Virus record (IMG/VR): IMGVR_UViG_3300037189_025222
Location: 1-64,000 of that record
Source: a virus
Reading direction: 5' to 3' (one strand)
Length of the DNA: 64,000 bases
Below, one piece after another: positions 44,214 to 60,473 of this stretch (position 1 is its first letter; each line of letters starts with the position of its first letter). The translations under genes were made by a program, and so were the position numbers. The notes beneath the pieces are model-generated. The model had not been told where the DNA came from. It searched no databases and was given only the letters and a program-made list of their open reading frames with translations.

Positions 44214-45125
44214 ATGGGTAAGGCTAAGAAGGCGACTTTAAGTGAAGATGCAATTGAAGTTTTGAGTGGTCTTGGGGAGATTACTCGACTTGATAAAGAT
44301 TTGAAAAAGCTAATTCGAACTTTGAATCGTGATGAGGTTCGGTGCATTGTGAACTATTATTACAATGTGCAGGAGAACCGGATGAGGTCTTCTAAGCAGA
44401 TTGATGCTGCCAGTAAGGCTGGTACTCCGCATGATCTGATGGTTTATCTGAATGCCCAAACTCAAGTTTTGGAAAATCAGATTGCTAAGGCTATGGATGA
44501 GTGGACTGAGGGGCATCCTGTAGCTAAGGCTTTGAAGGACAATGTTTATGGTATTGGCCCGATTATTTCAGCGGGTCTGGTTGCTCATTTTGATATTCGT
44601 CGGGCTGCTACTGCTGGTGCATTCTGGCGATATGCTGGTCTTGACCCCACATCTGAGTGGAACAAGGGTGAGAAGCGGCCTTGGAATGCAGCTTTGAAAA
44701 CTTTGTGTTGGAAGGTCGGCCAGAGTTTCATGAAGTTCTCTAATGCTACTGATAAAGATACCGGGGCAGCTAAGTGCTTTTACGGTGATCTTTATCGTCA
44801 GAAGAAGGCTGAATTGGTTGCTAAGAATCAGGGTGGTGGATTTAAGGGTCTGGCGGATAGTGTGTTGAAGGCTAAGAAGTTTCGTGATGTCGCAACTAAA
44901 GCAAAATATGAATCAGGGATGCTTCCTGATGGTCATATTGATGCTATGGCTCGTCGCTGGGCTGTGAAGCTGTTTCTGAGTAATCTGCATGAACTTTGGT
45001 GTGCAGCAGAGGGAATTCCGTGTCCTCGGCCTTATTCGATGGCGATTCAGGGCCATGCTCATTACATCATGCAGCCTGAACTGGCTGATTTGATTAATGT
45101 TTGGAAGAATGAAGCTAGGATTTAA
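44214..45125 (+). CDS. IS110-transposase C-terminal-domain-like protein, 303 aa
   Basis: Residues ~108-170 (VYGIGPIISAGLVAHFDIRR ... AGAFWRYAGLDPTSEWNKGEK ... LKTLCWKVGQSFMKF) follow the Transposase_20 pattern of IS110/IS116 elements: helix-hairpin-helix GIGP, then F-W-x-YAGLDP, then an LxxxxWKxG helix. The N-terminal DEDD/RuvC-like nuclease domain of true IS110 transposases is absent, replaced by ~105 helical residues, and no terminal repeats are visible. It looks like a domesticated phage DNA-binding protein rather than an active transposase. AAAGGAG before the start. Confidence 0.7.
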   Translation: MGKAKKATLSEDAIEVLSGLGEITRLDKDLKKLIRTLNRDEVRCIVNYYYNVQENRMRSSKQIDAASKAGTPHDLMVYLNAQTQVLENQIAKAMDEWTEGHPVAKALKDNVYGIGPIISAGLVAHFDIRRAATAGAFWRYAGLDPTSEWNKGEKRPWNAALKTLCWKVGQSFMKFSNATDKDTGAAKCFYGDLYRQKKAELVAKNQGGGFKGLADSVLKAKKFRDVATKAKYESGMLPDGHIDAMARRWAVKLFLSNLHELWCAAEGIPCPRPYSMAIQGHAHYIMQPELADLINVWKNEARI

Positions 45126-46026: not shown

Positions 46027-46036
46027 TTGTACCCTA
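46027..46036 (+). promoter_or_regulatory. TTGTACCCTA element
   Basis: Exact copy, 20 nt before the start at 46057; preceded by TAATTTTAAAAT ~20 bp upstream. Confidence 0.75.
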
Positions 46037-46056
46037 TAGGTGCAAGGAGAACCCAC

Positions 46057-47400
46057 ATGCCAAGAGCGAAAAAGGTTACGAAGAACGAGCAAGAGATTGT
46101 TGATGCTGTCAAGCAGACTCTTGCATCTTTTAGTGTTTCAGAAGCGGAATACGTCGAGTTCAAGAAAGATATTGAGAACATTGGCTACCGCTATAGCTTG
46201 GAGTTCCCTTTTTGGGGAGTGCTGTCGGAGCGGTGTTCTTTTAGTCTGACTAAGCATCTTGTGCCGACTGCCGGTATTACCAAGACGGGCCATATTATTT
46301 TTAATGTGGACTTTGTGAAGGAACTGCGTGAGAAGCACGGCAAGCTGTATCATAAGAAGATGCTGTTTCTGATTGCACATGAGATTGCCCACTTTGCTTT
46401 TGAACACGCCGAGCGGCAGGGTCAGCGTGATGCCAAAATCTTCAATATTGCTGCTGACTATGCAATCAACCTGCTGTTGCACTACCAGTTCAATGGTAAT
46501 AGCGATTACTTTATCGAAGGTGGTATGCTTGATACTTCGTATGACGGCATGAGTGCCGAGCAGATTTACGAACTTATCAAGGATAATTATAAAGGTCGTG
46601 GCCGAAGTGATGGTGGTGACGGTGGCGACGGTATTGGTAACGATCTTCGTCCTGATCTTACGGAAGAAGATATTGCCAATGGTTCTGCTTCGGTTCGTGA
46701 GCGTCGGATTCCTCTTCCTGATCTTCGTGGGAAGAGTCCCGAGCAAGCGAGGAAGGAACTTGCAGACTGGATTGGTCGTGGAACGCAAGAGGCTTTTGCT
46801 GTTGCAAAGTCACAGGGCAAGTTGCCATCTGATCTTGAGCGGGCTATTGCCAAGTTGCTCAAGCCACAGATTGACTGGCTGCGGGCTTTGAAGCAGAAGT
46901 TGCGTTTCGGTGTTAGCAGGACAGAGAAGCGGGACGTTACTTGGTCTGTACCTAACCGTCGTTTTCTTGGTGCTGATTTTATTATGCCAAGCAACGTCGG
47001 CCCGGATAAGCCCAAGATTGTTTATGCTATTGACACTAGCGGTAGCATGAGCGAAAGTGATTTGTCACAGGCTGTTAGTGAGTTGGAAGAAATCCGTGTC
47101 AAGTACGGTGCTAAGGTTTATATGCTTGATTGTGACGCTGATGTTCAATCAAGCCGTTGGATCGAACCGCATGAGCCGCTTCCTAAGTTGAAGGGTGGTG
47201 GTGGAACTGATTTTGTTCCAGTGTTCAACCATCTGATTGAGAAGCGTATCAGGCCGGATTACTGCTGCTTCTTTACTGACGGTTATGGGAACTTCGGTGA
47301 CGAAAAGCCACCGTTTGAAGTTCTCTGGGTCATGACGAGTCAGGTTGACCCGCCGTTTGGAGAAGTAGTCAGGGTGAATGTCCCGTATGAGGGGCAATAA
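46057..47400 (+). CDS. VWA-like metallopeptidase-domain protein (DUF2201-like), 447 aa
   Basis: N-terminal metallopeptidase-like domain with HEIAH at 108-112 (FLIAHEIAHFAFEHAERQ) and later DYAINLLLHYQF, a Gly/Asp-rich linker (~185-205, SDGGDGGDGIGND), then a VWA-like domain with metal site D-T-S-G-S at 326-330 (YAIDTSGSMSESDL), GGGTDF and CFFTDGYGNF. Such proteins pair with MoxR-type ATPases to remodel or activate other complexes; the ATPase is two genes downstream at 47880. Start 46057 behind AAGGAGA. Confidence 0.85.
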   Translation: MPRAKKVTKNEQEIVDAVKQTLASFSVSEAEYVEFKKDIENIGYRYSLEFPFWGVLSERCSFSLTKHLVPTAGITKTGHIIFNVDFVKELREKHGKLYHKKMLFLIAHEIAHFAFEHAERQGQRDAKIFNIAADYAINLLLHYQFNGNSDYFIEGGMLDTSYDGMSAEQIYELIKDNYKGRGRSDGGDGGDGIGNDLRPDLTEEDIANGSASVRERRIPLPDLRGKSPEQARKELADWIGRGTQEAFAVAKSQGKLPSDLERAIAKLLKPQIDWLRALKQKLRFGVSRTEKRDVTWSVPNRRFLGADFIMPSNVGPDKPKIVYAIDTSGSMSESDLSQAVSELEEIRVKYGAKVYMLDCDADVQSSRWIEPHEPLPKLKGGGGTDFVPVFNHLIEKRIRPDYCCFFTDGYGNFGDEKPPFEVLWVMTSQVDPPFGEVVRVNVPYEGQ

Positions 47401-47403
47401 AAA

Positions 47404-47413
47404 TTGTACCCTA
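47404..47413 (+). promoter_or_regulatory. TTGTACCCTA element
   Basis: Exact copy, 23 nt before the start at 47437, with GAAGGAG between. Confidence 0.75.
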
Positions 47414-47436
47414 AAGGTTTGTGAAGGAGATACCTT

Positions 47437-47823
47437 ATGGCTAAGAAAACTGCTAAGAAGAAGAAACCTGATCTCAGGGAGCTTTATATGCAGGCTTTCA
47501 GGGATAAGAAAAGACTTCCAGAGGATCAAGAAAAGTTGATGGCTAGTGATCCTGAGTTCGCTTATATGTATGCCAAGTATCTTCGTAAGCCTGCGGGCCT
47601 ACCGAATAATGGTGCTTGGAGTGAAGAAGAGGAAACCATCTTCTTCAAAAGTCCTAAATGGGCTTATATGTATAGCCTGTTCGTCAGGAAGTCTGACGCT
47701 ATATGCCGATATATGATGGCTAATGCCATTGTTGATGTTGAAGATGATTGGACTAAGCGTTTCTTTGACTTTCACACGGGAGTTGATAAAATCCGTGAAG
47801 AGTTAGAGAAAGTCGGAAAATAA
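47437..47823 (+). CDS. YA-repeat-related protein, 128 aa
   Basis: Basic N-terminus (KKTAKKKKPDLREL), then ASDPEFAYMYAKYLRK and FFKSPKWAYMYSLFVRKSDAI, two helical repeats of the YA type, ending RYMMANAIVDVEDDWTKRFF, comparable to the NYWVKRY end of the family at 40.5-43.1 kb. Sits between the VWA protein and its ATPase, so it could be an adaptor of that pair. Confidence 0.65.
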   Translation: MAKKTAKKKKPDLRELYMQAFRDKKRLPEDQEKLMASDPEFAYMYAKYLRKPAGLPNNGAWSEEEETIFFKSPKWAYMYSLFVRKSDAICRYMMANAIVDVEDDWTKRFFDFHTGVDKIREELEKVGK

Positions 47824-47833
47824 TTGTACCCTA
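47824..47833 (+). promoter_or_regulatory. TTGTACCCTA element
   Basis: Exact copy, 46 nt before the MoxR-like gene's start at 47880. Confidence 0.75.
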
Positions 47834-47879
47834 TAAGTTTGTTCTCGGGGTTTGATTTTTAAACTAAGGAGTTGATTAA

Positions 47880-48959
47880 ATGGCTGAAAAGCTCTTGAGC
47901 AGTGCTAATGTCATCACCGGCAGTCTGGTGAATGAGATTCGTAAGTGCCGGTCTGTTAAGACGAGCAAGGGGAATGGTATCCCCATGTTTATTTATGGTT
48001 CGCCTGGTGTGGGCAAGTCAGAGCAGGTTCATCAGGCTTGTGAGGCCGATGAAACCATGATCGACCTGCGGCTGAATACTCTTGATTCTATTGACCTTCG
48101 TGGTCTGCCTGTGGTGAAGAAGGACGATAAGGGCAACCCGACTCAGGTGGAGTGGGTTCGTCCTGAGTTTATCCCGTGGAATGGCAAGGGCATTTTGTTC
48201 CTTGACGAGATGAACACGGCTGCACCGTCTGTGCAGAATCCTGCCCTTCAACTGGTGCTTGACCGTAAGGTTGGTTCGCATCATCTTGGGCCGGATTGGT
48301 ACATCGTTGCGGCTGGCAACAAGGCTGATGATCGGGCGCATACCCATCCTCTGTCTGCTGCTCTGCGTCAGCGGTTTGCCATCTATCACTATGAGCCGGA
48401 TAAGGATACTTGGAGCAACTGGGCGGTCAAGAACAACATTCACCCGAACGTCATCGGGTTTATTAGTTTCAAGCCCGACCTGTTGATCCAGCCGCCTCTG
48501 GATGATGAGGGTGCTAACCCGAGTCCCCGTAGCTGGTATTACGTTTCGCAGCGGCTTTATGCCGACCAGTGCGAAACCAGTGATATTCGTGCGATGGTGG
48601 GTAGTGCTGCTAACGAGTTCATGGCTTATCAGGCTGTCTGTGCCAAGATTCCGAACATTTCGGAAATTATCAATGGTAAGACTACGTTCAAGGAAGATAA
48701 CAAGAACGTAACCATGAGCTATGCTGTCAGCACGGCGTTGTCGATTCATCTGCTTCGGTCAAAGTATACGACCGAGCATGTGAATAACTGCTTCAAGGGT
48801 GCTATCAACAACATGGCCGGTGAGCCGAGCATGGTGTTTATGCGGCAGTGCTTGATTCAGGGTGATGAGAAGATGAAGGCCGTCATCATCTCTTGCGACG
48901 AAGGCAAGAAGTGGTTCGACAAGCACGGCGAACATCTCCAGAAGGCTGTCAACTTCTAA
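47880..48959 (+). CDS. MoxR-type AAA+ ATPase, 359 aa
   Basis: Walker A YGSPGVGKS (39-47), Walker B ILFLDEMN (105-112), sensor WYIVAAGNKADD, arginine-finger region ALRQRFAIYHY, and the MoxR-style insert around SVQNPALQLVLDRKVG. MoxR ATPases work with VWA proteins as chaperone-like machines; its partner is the protein at 46057. C-terminal ~130 residues are helical. AAGGAG before the ATG; terminator hairpin after the stop. Confidence 0.9.
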   Translation: MAEKLLSSANVITGSLVNEIRKCRSVKTSKGNGIPMFIYGSPGVGKSEQVHQACEADETMIDLRLNTLDSIDLRGLPVVKKDDKGNPTQVEWVRPEFIPWNGKGILFLDEMNTAAPSVQNPALQLVLDRKVGSHHLGPDWYIVAAGNKADDRAHTHPLSAALRQRFAIYHYEPDKDTWSNWAVKNNIHPNVIGFISFKPDLLIQPPLDDEGANPSPRSWYYVSQRLYADQCETSDIRAMVGSAANEFMAYQAVCAKIPNISEIINGKTTFKEDNKNVTMSYAVSTALSIHLLRSKYTTEHVNNCFKGAINNMAGEPSMVFMRQCLIQGDEKMKAVIISCDEGKKWFDKHGEHLQKAVNF

Positions 48960-55002: not shown

Positions 55003-56151
55003 ATGGCTCGGACGAAGTCTGCCGAAGCGGTGTTGATTGAGGCTTGCTTGGCTGCTGGCACTGCTCACAACTACCGTATGTTTCAAAGGACGAACGAGTA
55101 TCAGCTTTATACTGACAACAATCCCGGCAAGGATATCAGCCAGCCGTTCTTCAATAGCGTGAAGAATCGTTGGGTTCGTAACCGTCCCGGCACTACTGTT
55201 ACCGCCGCCCCGGCTGTTGGTTCGGCTGTGGCTGTGGATGCTCCTTCTGTCCCGTCTCTCCCCCCTGCATTCGCTTTTGAGCCTGCGACTTGGACATACG
55301 ATGCGGAGGCCATTGATATGATTCCTACGTTGGATAAGCACTTCGTTATTACCGAAGAGAACAAGGCACTCGTTGACCTTGTTCAGAAGCGTAGCAAGGT
55401 TAGCAACGTCAACGTGCGGCTTGTCGGCCCCGCTGGCTGCGGCAAGACCAGCTTCGCTATGCAGTACGCAGCTAACCGTAAGCTGCCTGCGATGGTGATG
55501 GACTGTGCCAACGTGCGTGAGCCGCGAGACTGGTTCGGCTACCGTAAGTTCGGTGCCGATACCAAGGACATTGTGTGGCATGAAAGTATGTTCATCAAGA
55601 TGATCGAAACGGCTGGAAGCGTTGTTGTGCTGGACGAGTTGAATCGTGTCAGTCCGATGGTTGTGAATACGCTGATCCCGCTGCTCGACCATCGTCGGTC
55701 AACGTATCTGGAAGAGGCTGGGCGCCGGATCACGGTGGCAGAGGGCGTTACCTTCTGGGCTGCGTTGAATGAAGGCAACCAATTCACCGGAACTATCGCT
55801 CTGGACGAGGCTCTTAGCGACCGCTTCGGCCTTGTCGTGGAGTGCAAGTTTCTTGAGTCCAAGACCGAAAGCCATGTTCTTCGCCAGAAGACCGGCCTCG
55901 ACCTTGATAGCTGCAAGAAGTTGGTAGACGTTGCCAACCAAGTGCGGGCTAAGTCGCAGTCGGACAGCGTGGATGCCTTTAGCAAGCCTATCAGCACCCG
56001 TATGCTGGAAGAGGCTGCGATGGCAATGAGCATCGGTGGTACTAAGACCATGCACTACACGCTGCTGAACCACTTCAGTGCGGACGGTGGTGTGACTAGC
56101 CAGCGAGACGGCCTGCGGAAGCTGCTGGTTGGCAAGTTCGGGGAGATTTGA
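55003..56151 (+). CDS. MoxR/CbbQ-like AAA+ ATPase, 382 aa
   Basis: N-terminal ~100 residues are unlike the ATPase core (Ala/Pro-rich TVTAAPAVGSAVAVDAPSVP linker). The core has Walker A GPAGCGKT (142-149), Walker B VVVLDELN (207-214), sensor FWAALNEGNQF and ALSDRFGLVVEC. The pattern is closer to CbbQ/CobS-type MoxR ATPases than to the one at 47880. The CobT-like VWA partner is the next gene. CTAGGAG before the start. GC-richer codons than the left half. Confidence 0.9.
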   Translation: MARTKSAEAVLIEACLAAGTAHNYRMFQRTNEYQLYTDNNPGKDISQPFFNSVKNRWVRNRPGTTVTAAPAVGSAVAVDAPSVPSLPPAFAFEPATWTYDAEAIDMIPTLDKHFVITEENKALVDLVQKRSKVSNVNVRLVGPAGCGKTSFAMQYAANRKLPAMVMDCANVREPRDWFGYRKFGADTKDIVWHESMFIKMIETAGSVVVLDELNRVSPMVVNTLIPLLDHRRSTYLEEAGRRITVAEGVTFWAALNEGNQFTGTIALDEALSDRFGLVVECKFLESKTESHVLRQKTGLDLDSCKKLVDVANQVRAKSQSDSVDAFSKPISTRMLEEAAMAMSIGGTKTMHYTLLNHFSADGGVTSQRDGLRKLLVGKFGEI

Positions 56152-56157
56152 TCGACG

Positions 56158-56195
56158 CTGCCTGCCGGGGGAGACTAATAACCCCCGGCAGGCAG
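56158..56195 (+). terminator. Terminator-like hairpin
   Basis: CTGCCTGCCGGGGG (56158-56171) and CCCCCGGCAGGCAG (56182-56195), perfect 14-bp stem, loop AGACTAATAA; followed by CTAATTTTAAA. Confidence 0.8.
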
Positions 56196-56226
56196 GCTAA
56201 TTTTAAATAATTGTCCTCTAATTTTA

Positions 56227-56236
56227 TTGTACCCTA
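56227..56236 (+). promoter_or_regulatory. TTGTACCCTA element
   Basis: Exact copy, 42 nt before the start at 56279. Confidence 0.75.
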
Positions 56237-56278
56237 ACAAACTACAGTTCAACGGCACTCACTCTCAGGAGACGAACG

Positions 56279-58486
56279 ATGAAGGCTGAATGGTTCAAGC
56301 GGTGGGACGATAAGGCCGAGGATGATGTTGAAATCATCGAGGTTGATTCTTCTACTGGCTACTTCGGTCAGGAGGAGGAAGAGGAGACGGACAATCGGTC
56401 TGGCTGGTGGAGCCAGTTCCACGGTGGCGGCAAGTCCCGGTCTTATACCCCCGTCAAGAGTACCAGTGCGTACCTTCGGTCTCATTCGGGTTCTCAGGAC
56501 AATGGTCGCCGTGCTGATCGTAACGAAGACCTTCTGGAGGTTATCAAGGAGGTCAGCAAGACGATCAATCTCACCATCAATAGCGATGGTGGCAAGGATG
56601 AGAAGAATCTCAGTGTCCGGTATAGCGACGGGTGCGTTGTGAATGACCTGTCCTCACCGATTCTGTATGTCTCTCCCAAGGTTCTCATGGACGATAGCGG
56701 TGTTGTTCACGACAAGTCCAGCGATGCTTACTATGCTGGGCTTGATGCCTTGAACGGTCAGGCCATGCTGTGCAGCTTCATGCGAAAGAGCGTTGGCCGT
56801 AGGGCTAACTATCAGTACCAGTCTTGTGACAACTGGGCTGTTCGTAATCTTTACATGACCGATCTTCAGAGTACGGCTGGCAATGAGATTTATTCTGATT
56901 GGCCCGGCTTTCGCTCCTATGTCGATTCCCAGCAGAAGGTTTTCAACCAGAGCAGGGAAGCGATCATGGGTGCGTTCGCTAGCCCCGATCAGAACATTGA
57001 CAACTTTGTCAATCTGATTTGTCACAACCGTCTGTCTCAGGATCGTATTGACTATCACGATTACTTCCAGACAGAGATTGCCGACCGGCTTGATGCAGCG
57101 GATTGTCTTCTCAATGAGACGATGGACACGCCGTGCGAGAATGACGAGCGGTTCCAGCGGTCTAGCGATCTGTACAATCAGATTCAGCAGCTTCTTGATC
57201 TGACTCAGCCGCCCCCGCAGCAGCAGCCGCAGGACGGTGATGACGAGCAGGATGATGATCAGCAGCAGGACGGCCAGCCGCAGGGCAGCAAGGGCCAGAA
57301 TGACGATGACAGCGATTCCGATGGTCAGGATGGGGATGCTGATGGGGATGCTGATGGTGACGGTCAGGATGCTGACGGTGATGGTGATAGTGACTCTGAT
57401 AGCGATGCCGATGGTGGCAATAGTAACAACCCCGGTAAGGGTCGTAGCACTCCCGGCAACGGGAAGGGCAAGCCCAAGACCGACATTCAGAGCATCGACA
57501 CCAACTCCAACAGCCCGAAGAATCGGGAGTTCACTGGTGACAATAGTTACAATGAGACTACTGTCGCTGGTGACTATGCTGCTAGTCACATTGACCCCAG
57601 CCAGCAGTTGAGGGAGCGGGAGCAGCATCAGCCGGATGCACTCCGGTCGATTCAAGATAAGCAGCTTGAAGGTGCGACTTACACTCGCATCGTGCCGCCA
57701 GTGAATCCCGAAACGAGGGAGCGGTACAAGCGAGTTGTTAGTGCTAATCGTGGAGCGATCAGTCGTGTAAAGAACTGCTTCGACTTCCATAACACTGACT
57801 TCGCTCTGTCAAGCTATGGTTTGACGGTTGGCGGTCTTGACGAGCAGAGCCTTCATAAGGTTCAGTTCGGTGAGACAGAGCGGCTGTACGAGCGTAAGGA
57901 TATCCTTTCGAAGAAGAAGTGGCTGGTGACGCTGCTTATCGACCAGAGCGGTTCGATGGCAGGCCGGAAGATGGAACAGGCTAGGGAGTTGGCGATCATC
58001 TTCTCCGAAGCTTTGAAGTCTCTCCGTGACACTGACTTCAGCGTGTACGGTTTCTCTACGGGTGGTAACACTAGGATTAACACCTATTGTTACAAAGACA
58101 CCCAGACGAAGAAACTGGAAGCGTTGAGCGAGGCGTGTGAACACCAGAACACGGGTCTTGGGTTCCATATCGCTCATGTTGGGGATAAGATGCTCAAGCA
58201 GTATCCCAACCATGAGAATCGGATTCTGTTTGTGATTACTGACGGTGAACCTAACATGACTCCCACTCCGACAATGAATGGGTATCAGCATACGGCTCAC
58301 TGTTGTAATCTCTTGCGGAAGCGTGGTATCAACGTGTACGGCATCGGCATTGCCAATGCGTTCGGTGATCCCACTGGTCAGCAGTTGTTCGGCAACGGTA
58401 ACTACACCGTGTTGAACGATGTTCGGTCTACGCTGAACGTGCTTACCAATCGGTTGCGGAACTTCTTCAAGAAGATGAAGAGGTAG
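56279..58486 (+). CDS. CobT-like VWA-domain protein, 735 aa
   Basis: Layout resembles cobaltochelatase CobT and related MoxR partners: a ~300-residue N-terminal region, a ~100-residue Gln/Asp/Gly linker (~305-405, QQQPQDGDDEQDDDQQQDG), then a C-terminal VWA domain with the metal site D-Q-S-G-S at 555-559 (LLIDQSGSMAGRKMEQ), the threonine region NTGLGFHIAHVGDKML and the FVITDGEPNM strand. The acidic linker may bind cations. With the ATPase at 55003 it makes a second, independent MoxR/VWA machine. AGGAGA before the ATG. Confidence 0.85.
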   Translation: MKAEWFKRWDDKAEDDVEIIEVDSSTGYFGQEEEEETDNRSGWWSQFHGGGKSRSYTPVKSTSAYLRSHSGSQDNGRRADRNEDLLEVIKEVSKTINLTINSDGGKDEKNLSVRYSDGCVVNDLSSPILYVSPKVLMDDSGVVHDKSSDAYYAGLDALNGQAMLCSFMRKSVGRRANYQYQSCDNWAVRNLYMTDLQSTAGNEIYSDWPGFRSYVDSQQKVFNQSREAIMGAFASPDQNIDNFVNLICHNRLSQDRIDYHDYFQTEIADRLDAADCLLNETMDTPCENDERFQRSSDLYNQIQQLLDLTQPPPQQQPQDGDDEQDDDQQQDGQPQGSKGQNDDDSDSDGQDGDADGDADGDGQDADGDGDSDSDSDADGGNSNNPGKGRSTPGNGKGKPKTDIQSIDTNSNSPKNREFTGDNSYNETTVAGDYAASHIDPSQQLREREQHQPDALRSIQDKQLEGATYTRIVPPVNPETRERYKRVVSANRGAISRVKNCFDFHNTDFALSSYGLTVGGLDEQSLHKVQFGETERLYERKDILSKKKWLVTLLIDQSGSMAGRKMEQARELAIIFSEALKSLRDTDFSVYGFSTGGNTRINTYCYKDTQTKKLEALSEACEHQNTGLGFHIAHVGDKMLKQYPNHENRILFVITDGEPNMTPTPTMNGYQHTAHCCNLLRKRGINVYGIGIANAFGDPTGQQLFGNGNYTVLNDVRSTLNVLTNRLRNFFKKMKR

Positions 58487-59610: not shown

Positions 59611-59865
59611 TCACTTCCGCTGCGAAAGCAGCCACCTTGCCTGAGGTGCCCTTTCCGCAGGGAATCAGGCCGTCGTGTTCATGAGGCGTACCCTTTCCGT
59701 CGTCGGGGTGCATGAACTCACTTTGATATTGCATGTGCTGTTTGGACTCGACAGTAAATATCATGGTCAACCCGTACCAGTGTCACTGTGGACTCATACC
59801 CCACGGTGTGTCCGTGCGACTCGGATGACGGGCATAAATGGATTTATGGGACTGATACTGCAAAA
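59611..59865. other. Intergenic stretch before tRNA-Lys, no gene called
   Basis: Short frames exist on both strands (e.g. minus strand 59573-59770; plus 59764-59829 with CHCG) but none has a ribosome site or clear protein pattern. CCCTTTCCG occurs twice (59648 and 59690 regions) and the DNA is hairpin-rich; could be a leader or a small RNA. Confidence 0.4.
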
Positions 59866-60134
59866 GGAAGCGTAGCTCAGTTGGTAGAGCATCGGACTTC
59901 AAATAGGAGTGCTTATCGGGAAACTGATAAAGTAGAACTGCTCAAATTCGGTGAACGCTTAACTGCCAATACCGAGCCAAGCCTAGAAATAGGAAGGTGT
60001 AGAGACTTGACGGGCAGCACCTAAAGTTGAAAAACAATGGTGAAGGTAAAGTCCAGACCACAAACAGAAATGGTAACGAAAGTTATAGTGGTAAGTTAAT
60101 CCGTTGGTCCTGGGTTCGAGTCCCAGCGCTTCCA
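59866..60134 (+). tRNA. tRNA-Lys(TTT) interrupted by a group I intron
   Basis: Exons 59866-59899 and 60096-60134. Spliced cloverleaf: acceptor GGAAGCG/CGCTTCC, D arm GCTCAGTTGGTAGAGC, anticodon arm TCGGA-CTTTTAA-TCCGT (anticodon TTT, reads AAA), T arm CTGGG-TTCGAGT-CCCAG. The intron falls after the first anticodon base. Read unspliced, the loop would mimic other anticodons, so automated calls may be wrong. Confidence 0.9.
59900..60095 (+). ncRNA. Group I intron (IC3-like), 196 nt
   Basis: Core elements in order: P AAATTCGGTGAACGC, Q AATACCGAGCC, R GTGTAGAGACTTGACGGGCA and S AAGGTAAAGTCCAGACC. P7 pairs AGACT with AGTCC. P1 is formed by exon ACTT and internal guide GAGT with the U-G pair at the 5' splice site; the intron ends in G60095. 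The arrangement closely resembles the small self-splicing intron of Azoarcus tRNA-Ile as I remember it. No endonuclease gene inside. Confidence 0.9.
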
Positions 60135-60350: not shown

Positions 60351-60435
60351 GCCGAAGTGGCGAAATTGGCGAAACGCAAGGGACTTAAAATCCCTCACAT
60401 TAGAAACACTGCGGGTTCGAATCCCGCCTTCGGCA
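60351..60435 (+). tRNA. tRNA-Leu(TAA)
   Basis: Acceptor GCCGAAG/CTTCGGC, anticodon stem AGGGA/TCCCT with loop CTTAAAA (anticodon TAA, reads TTA), a long variable arm as in class II tRNAs, T arm GCGGG-TTCGAAT-CCCGC. No intron, unlike many tRNA-Leu(TAA) genes. Confidence 0.9.
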
Positions 60436-60473
60436 CTGGTTTGATTTTTATAACTTGTGAATAAGGAGATAAC

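Follow-up and report, generated by a model that had tools for sequence, protein, structure and literature searches.

Group I introns interrupting tRNA genes are well described in bacteria and plastids. The IC3 introns of the Azoarcus tRNA-Ile, of the proteobacterial tRNA-Arg(CCU) and of the Anabaena and plastid tRNA-Leu(UAA) share a compact core, an insertion site in the anticodon loop, a U-G splice pair and a terminal G, and those of tRNA-Leu(UAA) are inserted right after U34. The trnK intron of plant plastids occupies the same isoacceptor as the intron described here but is a group II intron. Phage group I introns, such as those of T4 (td and nrd), SPO1, Twort, Bastille, Jug and the crAss-like phages, are also ribozymes of the self-splicing type, and those reported sit in protein-coding genes; according to a 2014 review, this held for every phage intron known at the time (PMC3984707). 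Open-access full texts yielded no report of phage tRNA genes interrupted by group I introns, nor a credible one for bacterial tRNA-Lys genes. The 'group I introns' of 22-49 nt claimed for cyanobacterial tRNA-Lys and other tRNAs (PMC5733544) are too short to belong to this class, and a survey of jumbo phages mentions intronic sequences in phage tRNAs with the class unnamed (PMC13037316).

The intron presented here is of an already known kind, that of the self-splicing introns found in tRNA genes of bacteria and plastids. As a group I intron it is ordinary; its host gene and the genome around it are unusual, and it is one member of a larger, little-described, tRNA-switching family. In contrast to the bacterial IC3 introns, its host is the tRNA-Lys(UUU) of a jumbo phage and its P10 guide reads UAG rather than UUU; unlike the reported phage introns, it lies in a tRNA gene. 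We put at about 0.9 the probability that it is an IC3-like ribozyme at U34/U35 of this phage tRNA, spliced under the guidance of P1 and P10, whose lineage probably moved between tRNAs. The window, i.e. the whole 64,000-nt stretch of DNA that was analysed, comes from an IMG/VR virus record of 145,911 bases. The features at the locus and its nearest tRNA neighbour are the following.

59866-59899, + strand: 5' exon of tRNA-Lys(UUU), ending at U34 (ARAGORN on the spliced sequence)
59900-60095, + strand: group I intron, IC3-like, 196 nt (RF00028, 52 bits; leave-one-out model R1, 220 bits)
60096-60134, + strand: 3' exon of tRNA-Lys(UUU), from U35, CCA not encoded (ARAGORN on the spliced sequence)
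60351-60436, + strand: neighbouring intronless tRNA-Leu(UAA), whose 5' exon half also ends GGACUU

On the raw window, ARAGORN called six other tRNAs and none at the tRNA-Lys locus (59866-60134), and the unspliced gene alone was misread as a tRNA-Val with an intron. Once positions 59900-60095 were removed, the program called a tRNA-Lys(ttt) of 73 nt. These bounds coincide exactly with the coordinates and the 196-nt length given in the original prediction, and the ARAGORN-checked exons bear out its placement of the insertion after U34. It had also announced a perfect tRNA-Lys upon removal, which holds for the identity of the tRNA and is slightly overstated for its pairing: the acceptor and T stems are complete (7/7 and 5/5), whereas the anticodon stem has 4 of 5 pairs owing to a U27-U43 mismatch. 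The same position is likewise unpaired in five others among the 14 Lys loci compared, and compensatory changes preserve the acceptor and T stems in the exons of these loci. Within the intron no endonuclease ORF was found, and 196 nt could not accommodate one; a single listed + strand ORF enters it, a 78-aa frame starting upstream of the tRNA. The tRNA-Lys intron thus encodes no homing endonuclease of the kind carried by homing introns.

The phage location that had been proposed is supported by the proteins of the window, whose phage-family matches include a tail protein and ATPases, and by 11,522 nt around the tRNA-Lys gene that are 100% identical to a viral record of 381,443 bases encoding a large terminase (PF17289). 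The 145,911-base record yielded no terminase of family PF03237. Because of the identical, terminase-bearing record and the phage families in the window, the genome carrying the split tRNA-Lys is that of a jumbo phage and measures at least 381 kb. An assembly error was rejected on account of the identical sequence in this second viral record, though the two may stem from overlapping data.

The assignment to group I was assessed with two models. The broad Rfam model Intron_gpI (RF00028) matched positions 59889-60076 with 52.0 bits (E 2.5e-10 over the whole window), barely above its gathering cut-off of 50, and had no second match in the window. It leaves several relatives (L001, L250, L255 and L257) below this cut-off, though they plainly belong to the same intron family. 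A second covariance model, derived from 32 relatives that did not include the window, matched 59894-60101 with 220.2 bits (E 6.8e-63); it found no other match in the window and no further copy of this intron type in the 145,911-base record or its 381,443-base relative. Both covariance models thus score the core, as the original prediction required. Additionally, a hand-written fold from P1 to P10 (57 pairs) was scored on 39 non-redundant introns: 92.9% of the cells are paired and 37 pairs carry changes on both sides. Its covariation reaches 0.512 against 0.157 in shuffled alignments (a value attained by 0 of 500) and no more than 0.095 when the fold is slid, the shuffles being blind to the relatedness of the introns and the slid controls not. 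Chance resemblance to a group I intron is ruled out by the model scores and the covariation. The elements of the fold are listed below, all on the + strand.

59896-59899, + strand: P1 exon strand ACUU, whose final U pairs with an intron G (U-G splice pair, U-G in 38/39 introns)
59904-59906, + strand: P10 guide UAG, proposed partner 60096-60098 (3' exon UUA; guide/exon match over 39 introns)
59907-59910, + strand: P1 intron strand GAGU, the internal guide sequence (hand-written fold)
59913-59930, + strand: P2 hairpin with GAAA loop (both-side changes in 7/7 pairs)
59938-59943, + strand: P3 5' strand, partner 60012-60017 (100% paired; 6/6 pairs covary)
59947-59952, + strand: P4 5' strand, element P, partner 59971-59976 (97% paired)
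59957-59966, + strand: P5, 2 bp around a 6-nt loop, without P5abc (both pairs covary)
59971-59976, + strand: P4 3' strand, element Q (hand-written fold, 39 introns)
59977-59997, + strand: P6 and P6a with GAAA loop (100% and 92% paired)
60004-60007, + strand: P7 5' strand, element R, the expected guanosine-binding helix, partner 60050-60053 (invariant, 39/39)
60012-60017, + strand: P3 3' strand, partner 59938-59943 (same pairs as the 5' strand)
60018-60042, + strand: P8, 60018-60021 with 60039-60042 (100% paired; 3/4 pairs covary)
60050-60053, + strand: P7 3' strand, element S (invariant)
60057-60092, + strand: P9, 60057-60061 with 60088-60092, inner hairpin 60074-60085 (98-99% paired)
60095, + strand: terminal G of the intron, omega G (column invariant)

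Elements P, Q, R and S, the U-G pair of P1 and the terminal G, all read from the sequence at the outset, are present. The intron possesses the P3-P9 core of group I introns with an intact P7, the splice pair U59899-G59907 and the terminal G60095. Insertion in the anticodon loop (U34/U35) and a compact core devoid of P5abc and of P7 extensions are the traits of IC3 introns. The intron is hence of the compact tRNA type, as originally proposed, and IC3-like, a label drawn from its anatomy and its resemblance to the Azoarcus intron.

The expected splicing reaction is as follows. The exon end ACUU would pair with the intron GAGU to form P1, with the U-G pair at the splice site, and a guanosine bound in P7 would attack after U34. 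The freed U34 would then attack behind the terminal G, with the 3' exon UUA held by the intron 5'-UAG (P10) and the two exons kept together by the anticodon stem, so that the product would be an intact tRNA-Lys.

A dead or decaying tRNA gene passively carrying an inactive insert would be in keeping with the absence of an ORF in the insert and with the dispensability of some phage tRNAs, but all core helices, P7 and the terminal G are intact, the model scores the intron over its full length and the exon stems of the 14 Lys loci are kept through compensatory changes, which makes this reading very improbable. The Azoarcus and Anabaena tRNA introns of the same type self-splice in vitro with a similarly short P1. 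This argues against an absolute need for a helper protein, whether an RNA chaperone or a synthetase-like factor, without which no splicing would occur in the cell; such a need is unlikely here, although both P1 (4 bp) and P10 (3 bp) are short and helper proteins do assist other group I introns (PMC3984707). Finally, the intron could be kept because the unspliced pre-tRNA-Lys escapes anticodon nucleases such as PrrC, which cuts tRNA-Lys(UUU) beside U34. PrrC does target tRNA-Lys(ttt) (PMC10264068) and the intron adjoins U34. Nevertheless, tRNA-Leu, Arg, Thr and Glu, which are not known PrrC targets, carry introns at this site too, the mature tRNA would still be cleavable and P1 alone accounts for the choice of the site, so that shielding is barely credible as the reason for the intron.

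The closest match in annotated phages is a tRNA-Leu(UAA) intron of a 735-kb huge phage (LR756501, a record without annotation), which lies at the same anticodon-loop position with 81% identity but differs in its host tRNA and its P10 guide, UUU. The next matches are in Agrobacterium phage Atu_ph07 (another tRNA-Leu) and in the capsid gene of Pelagibacter phage HTVC120P. Pattern scans of viral contigs, combined with splice-and-fold checks using ARAGORN, found an intron of the same family at the same tRNA-Lys(UUU) position in 16 viral records beyond the phage of the window, several of them near-copies. Same-family introns occur in tRNA-Leu(UAA) in many more viral records, and also in tRNA-Arg(UCU), Glu and Thr. 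The expectation that an intron in a phage tRNA-Lys would be uncommon therefore needs qualifying, as such introns are not rare within phages, and the 2014 picture of phage group I introns avoiding tRNA genes is contradicted. Split genes of this sort escape ARAGORN as well as the Rfam cut-off, which offers a reason for the oversight, and phage tRNA gene counts are too low.

One of these 16 Lys records is a cultured phage, Gordonia phage Daredevil (L255, 41847-42124), whose split tRNA-Lys gene is unannotated. An integrase gene lies only about 600 bases away, so this split tRNA-Lys may be part of an attachment-site region. Two other Lys-site introns, L081 and L247, have cores that differ from that of the window's family, and at least two kinds of group I intron have thus come to occupy the tRNA-Lys site. 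The former scores 79.8 bits with RF00028 and its spliced exons fold as tRNA-Lys(ttt); the latter encodes a PD-(D/E)XK endonuclease (PF11645, E 6.9e-18), a type of homing enzyme known from a cyanobacterial tRNA-fMet intron. Separately, the tRNA-Leu intron of a 595-kb phage (LR756511, L004) appears, as read from its sequence, to hold an HNH-like coding stretch.

Since related introns occupy one position in several tRNAs, their lineage has probably passed from one tRNA gene to another among those that have CUU before the site, its P10 guide being adapted to each new 3' exon. The 3' exon of each host tRNA opens with three bases that are matched by the three intron bases directly preceding the P1 guide GAG. 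Facing AAA in tRNA-Leu, the guide is mostly UUU or AUU; facing UUA in tRNA-Lys, it is UAG in 12 of 14 introns; tRNA-Arg (CUA) has AAG, ACG or UAG and tRNA-Thr (GUA) has UAC. With the guide picked by a label-blind rule in 39 introns, 96 of 117 positions can pair with the intron's own 3' exon, against 63.9 after shuffling (maximum 85 in 20000), a test that overstates significance since related introns share guides. The independent pairs on starred branches numbered only three, too few for a sign test. In the window, P10 consists of only three pairs including a U-G, and tRNA-Arg(UCU) would fit slightly better.

The neighbouring tRNA-Leu(UAA) lies about 217 nt downstream of the split gene, is intronless and has GGACTT before the equivalent site; P1 alone therefore cannot explain why tRNA-Lys rather than tRNA-Leu is occupied. 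The guide UAG can pair at three positions with UUA and at one with the AAA of tRNA-Leu. A tree of the cores was made without the guide columns (183 columns, few strong branches). On it the Lys label needs 8 changes, a single Lys clade is rejected (AU p 1.4e-5) and the nearest rows of the window's intron include a tRNA-Glu intron. The Lys-site introns are not monophyletic and their guides track their hosts, as repeated movement with guide adjustment predicts; this agreement is not a proof. Movement could have occurred by reverse splicing or through a homing endonuclease supplied in trans. Because five host tRNAs (Leu, Lys, Arg, Thr and Glu) are used at one site, the question of how an endonuclease-less intron changes its host gene becomes testable through three nucleotides.

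The family extends to bacterial genomes. A scan for the Lys version that covered 84,980 species with a single genome each gave five matches, three of them in Microbacterium, and the assemblies L249, L250 and L252 of this genus have the intron at the same tRNA-Lys site. Among 119 Microbacterium genomes, the split tRNA-Lys(UUU) is found in 9, at 89-100% identity to the gene of Microbacterium sp. AK031, which seems to have no other tRNA-Lys(UUU). An uninterrupted tRNA-Lys(UUU) was detected by pattern in 91 of the 110 genomes without the split gene and in 0 of the 9 with it (Fisher p 7e-7, which does not count independent events since the nine genomes may share ancestry). All nine fall among the 28 of 119 genomes without an uninterrupted copy. 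The other 19 show neither form by these patterns, which hence overlook some genes, and the absence of an uninterrupted copy is to that extent unproven. From their gene content, these Microbacterium appear to rely on the split gene, and splicing in their cells would then be needed. No paper on a split Microbacterium tRNA-Lys(UUU) was found in the open-access literature.

A wider reading, to which we give slightly less than an even chance, is that phages, plasmids and bacteria share one pool of compact ribozyme introns moving between tRNA genes at a single anticodon-loop position. The CUU end would provide P1 and changes of the three-nucleotide P10 guide would fit the intron to its new tRNA; phages would act as vectors and some bacteria would depend on an intron in their only tRNA-Lys(UUU). 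On the side of plasmids, the window query matches 1272 records (from Escherichia, Klebsiella and others) at 60-80% identity, three of which were examined. In PLSDB plasmids (L257:1518-1731, L258), a tRNA-Leu(UAA) split by a related group I intron has aac(3)-IId in its vicinity, on the IncL/M plasmid pCTX-M3.

Around the phage locus, the 255 non-coding nt at 59611-59865, between an ORF and the tRNA-Lys, contain many short hairpins, with no excess of structure over this interval (z -0.96). A transposase-like gene (phrog_4285, E 1.8e-34) is located at 44214-45125, and two pairs of ATPase and VWA/peptidase-like genes (46027-48959 and 55003-58486) lie near the tRNA region.
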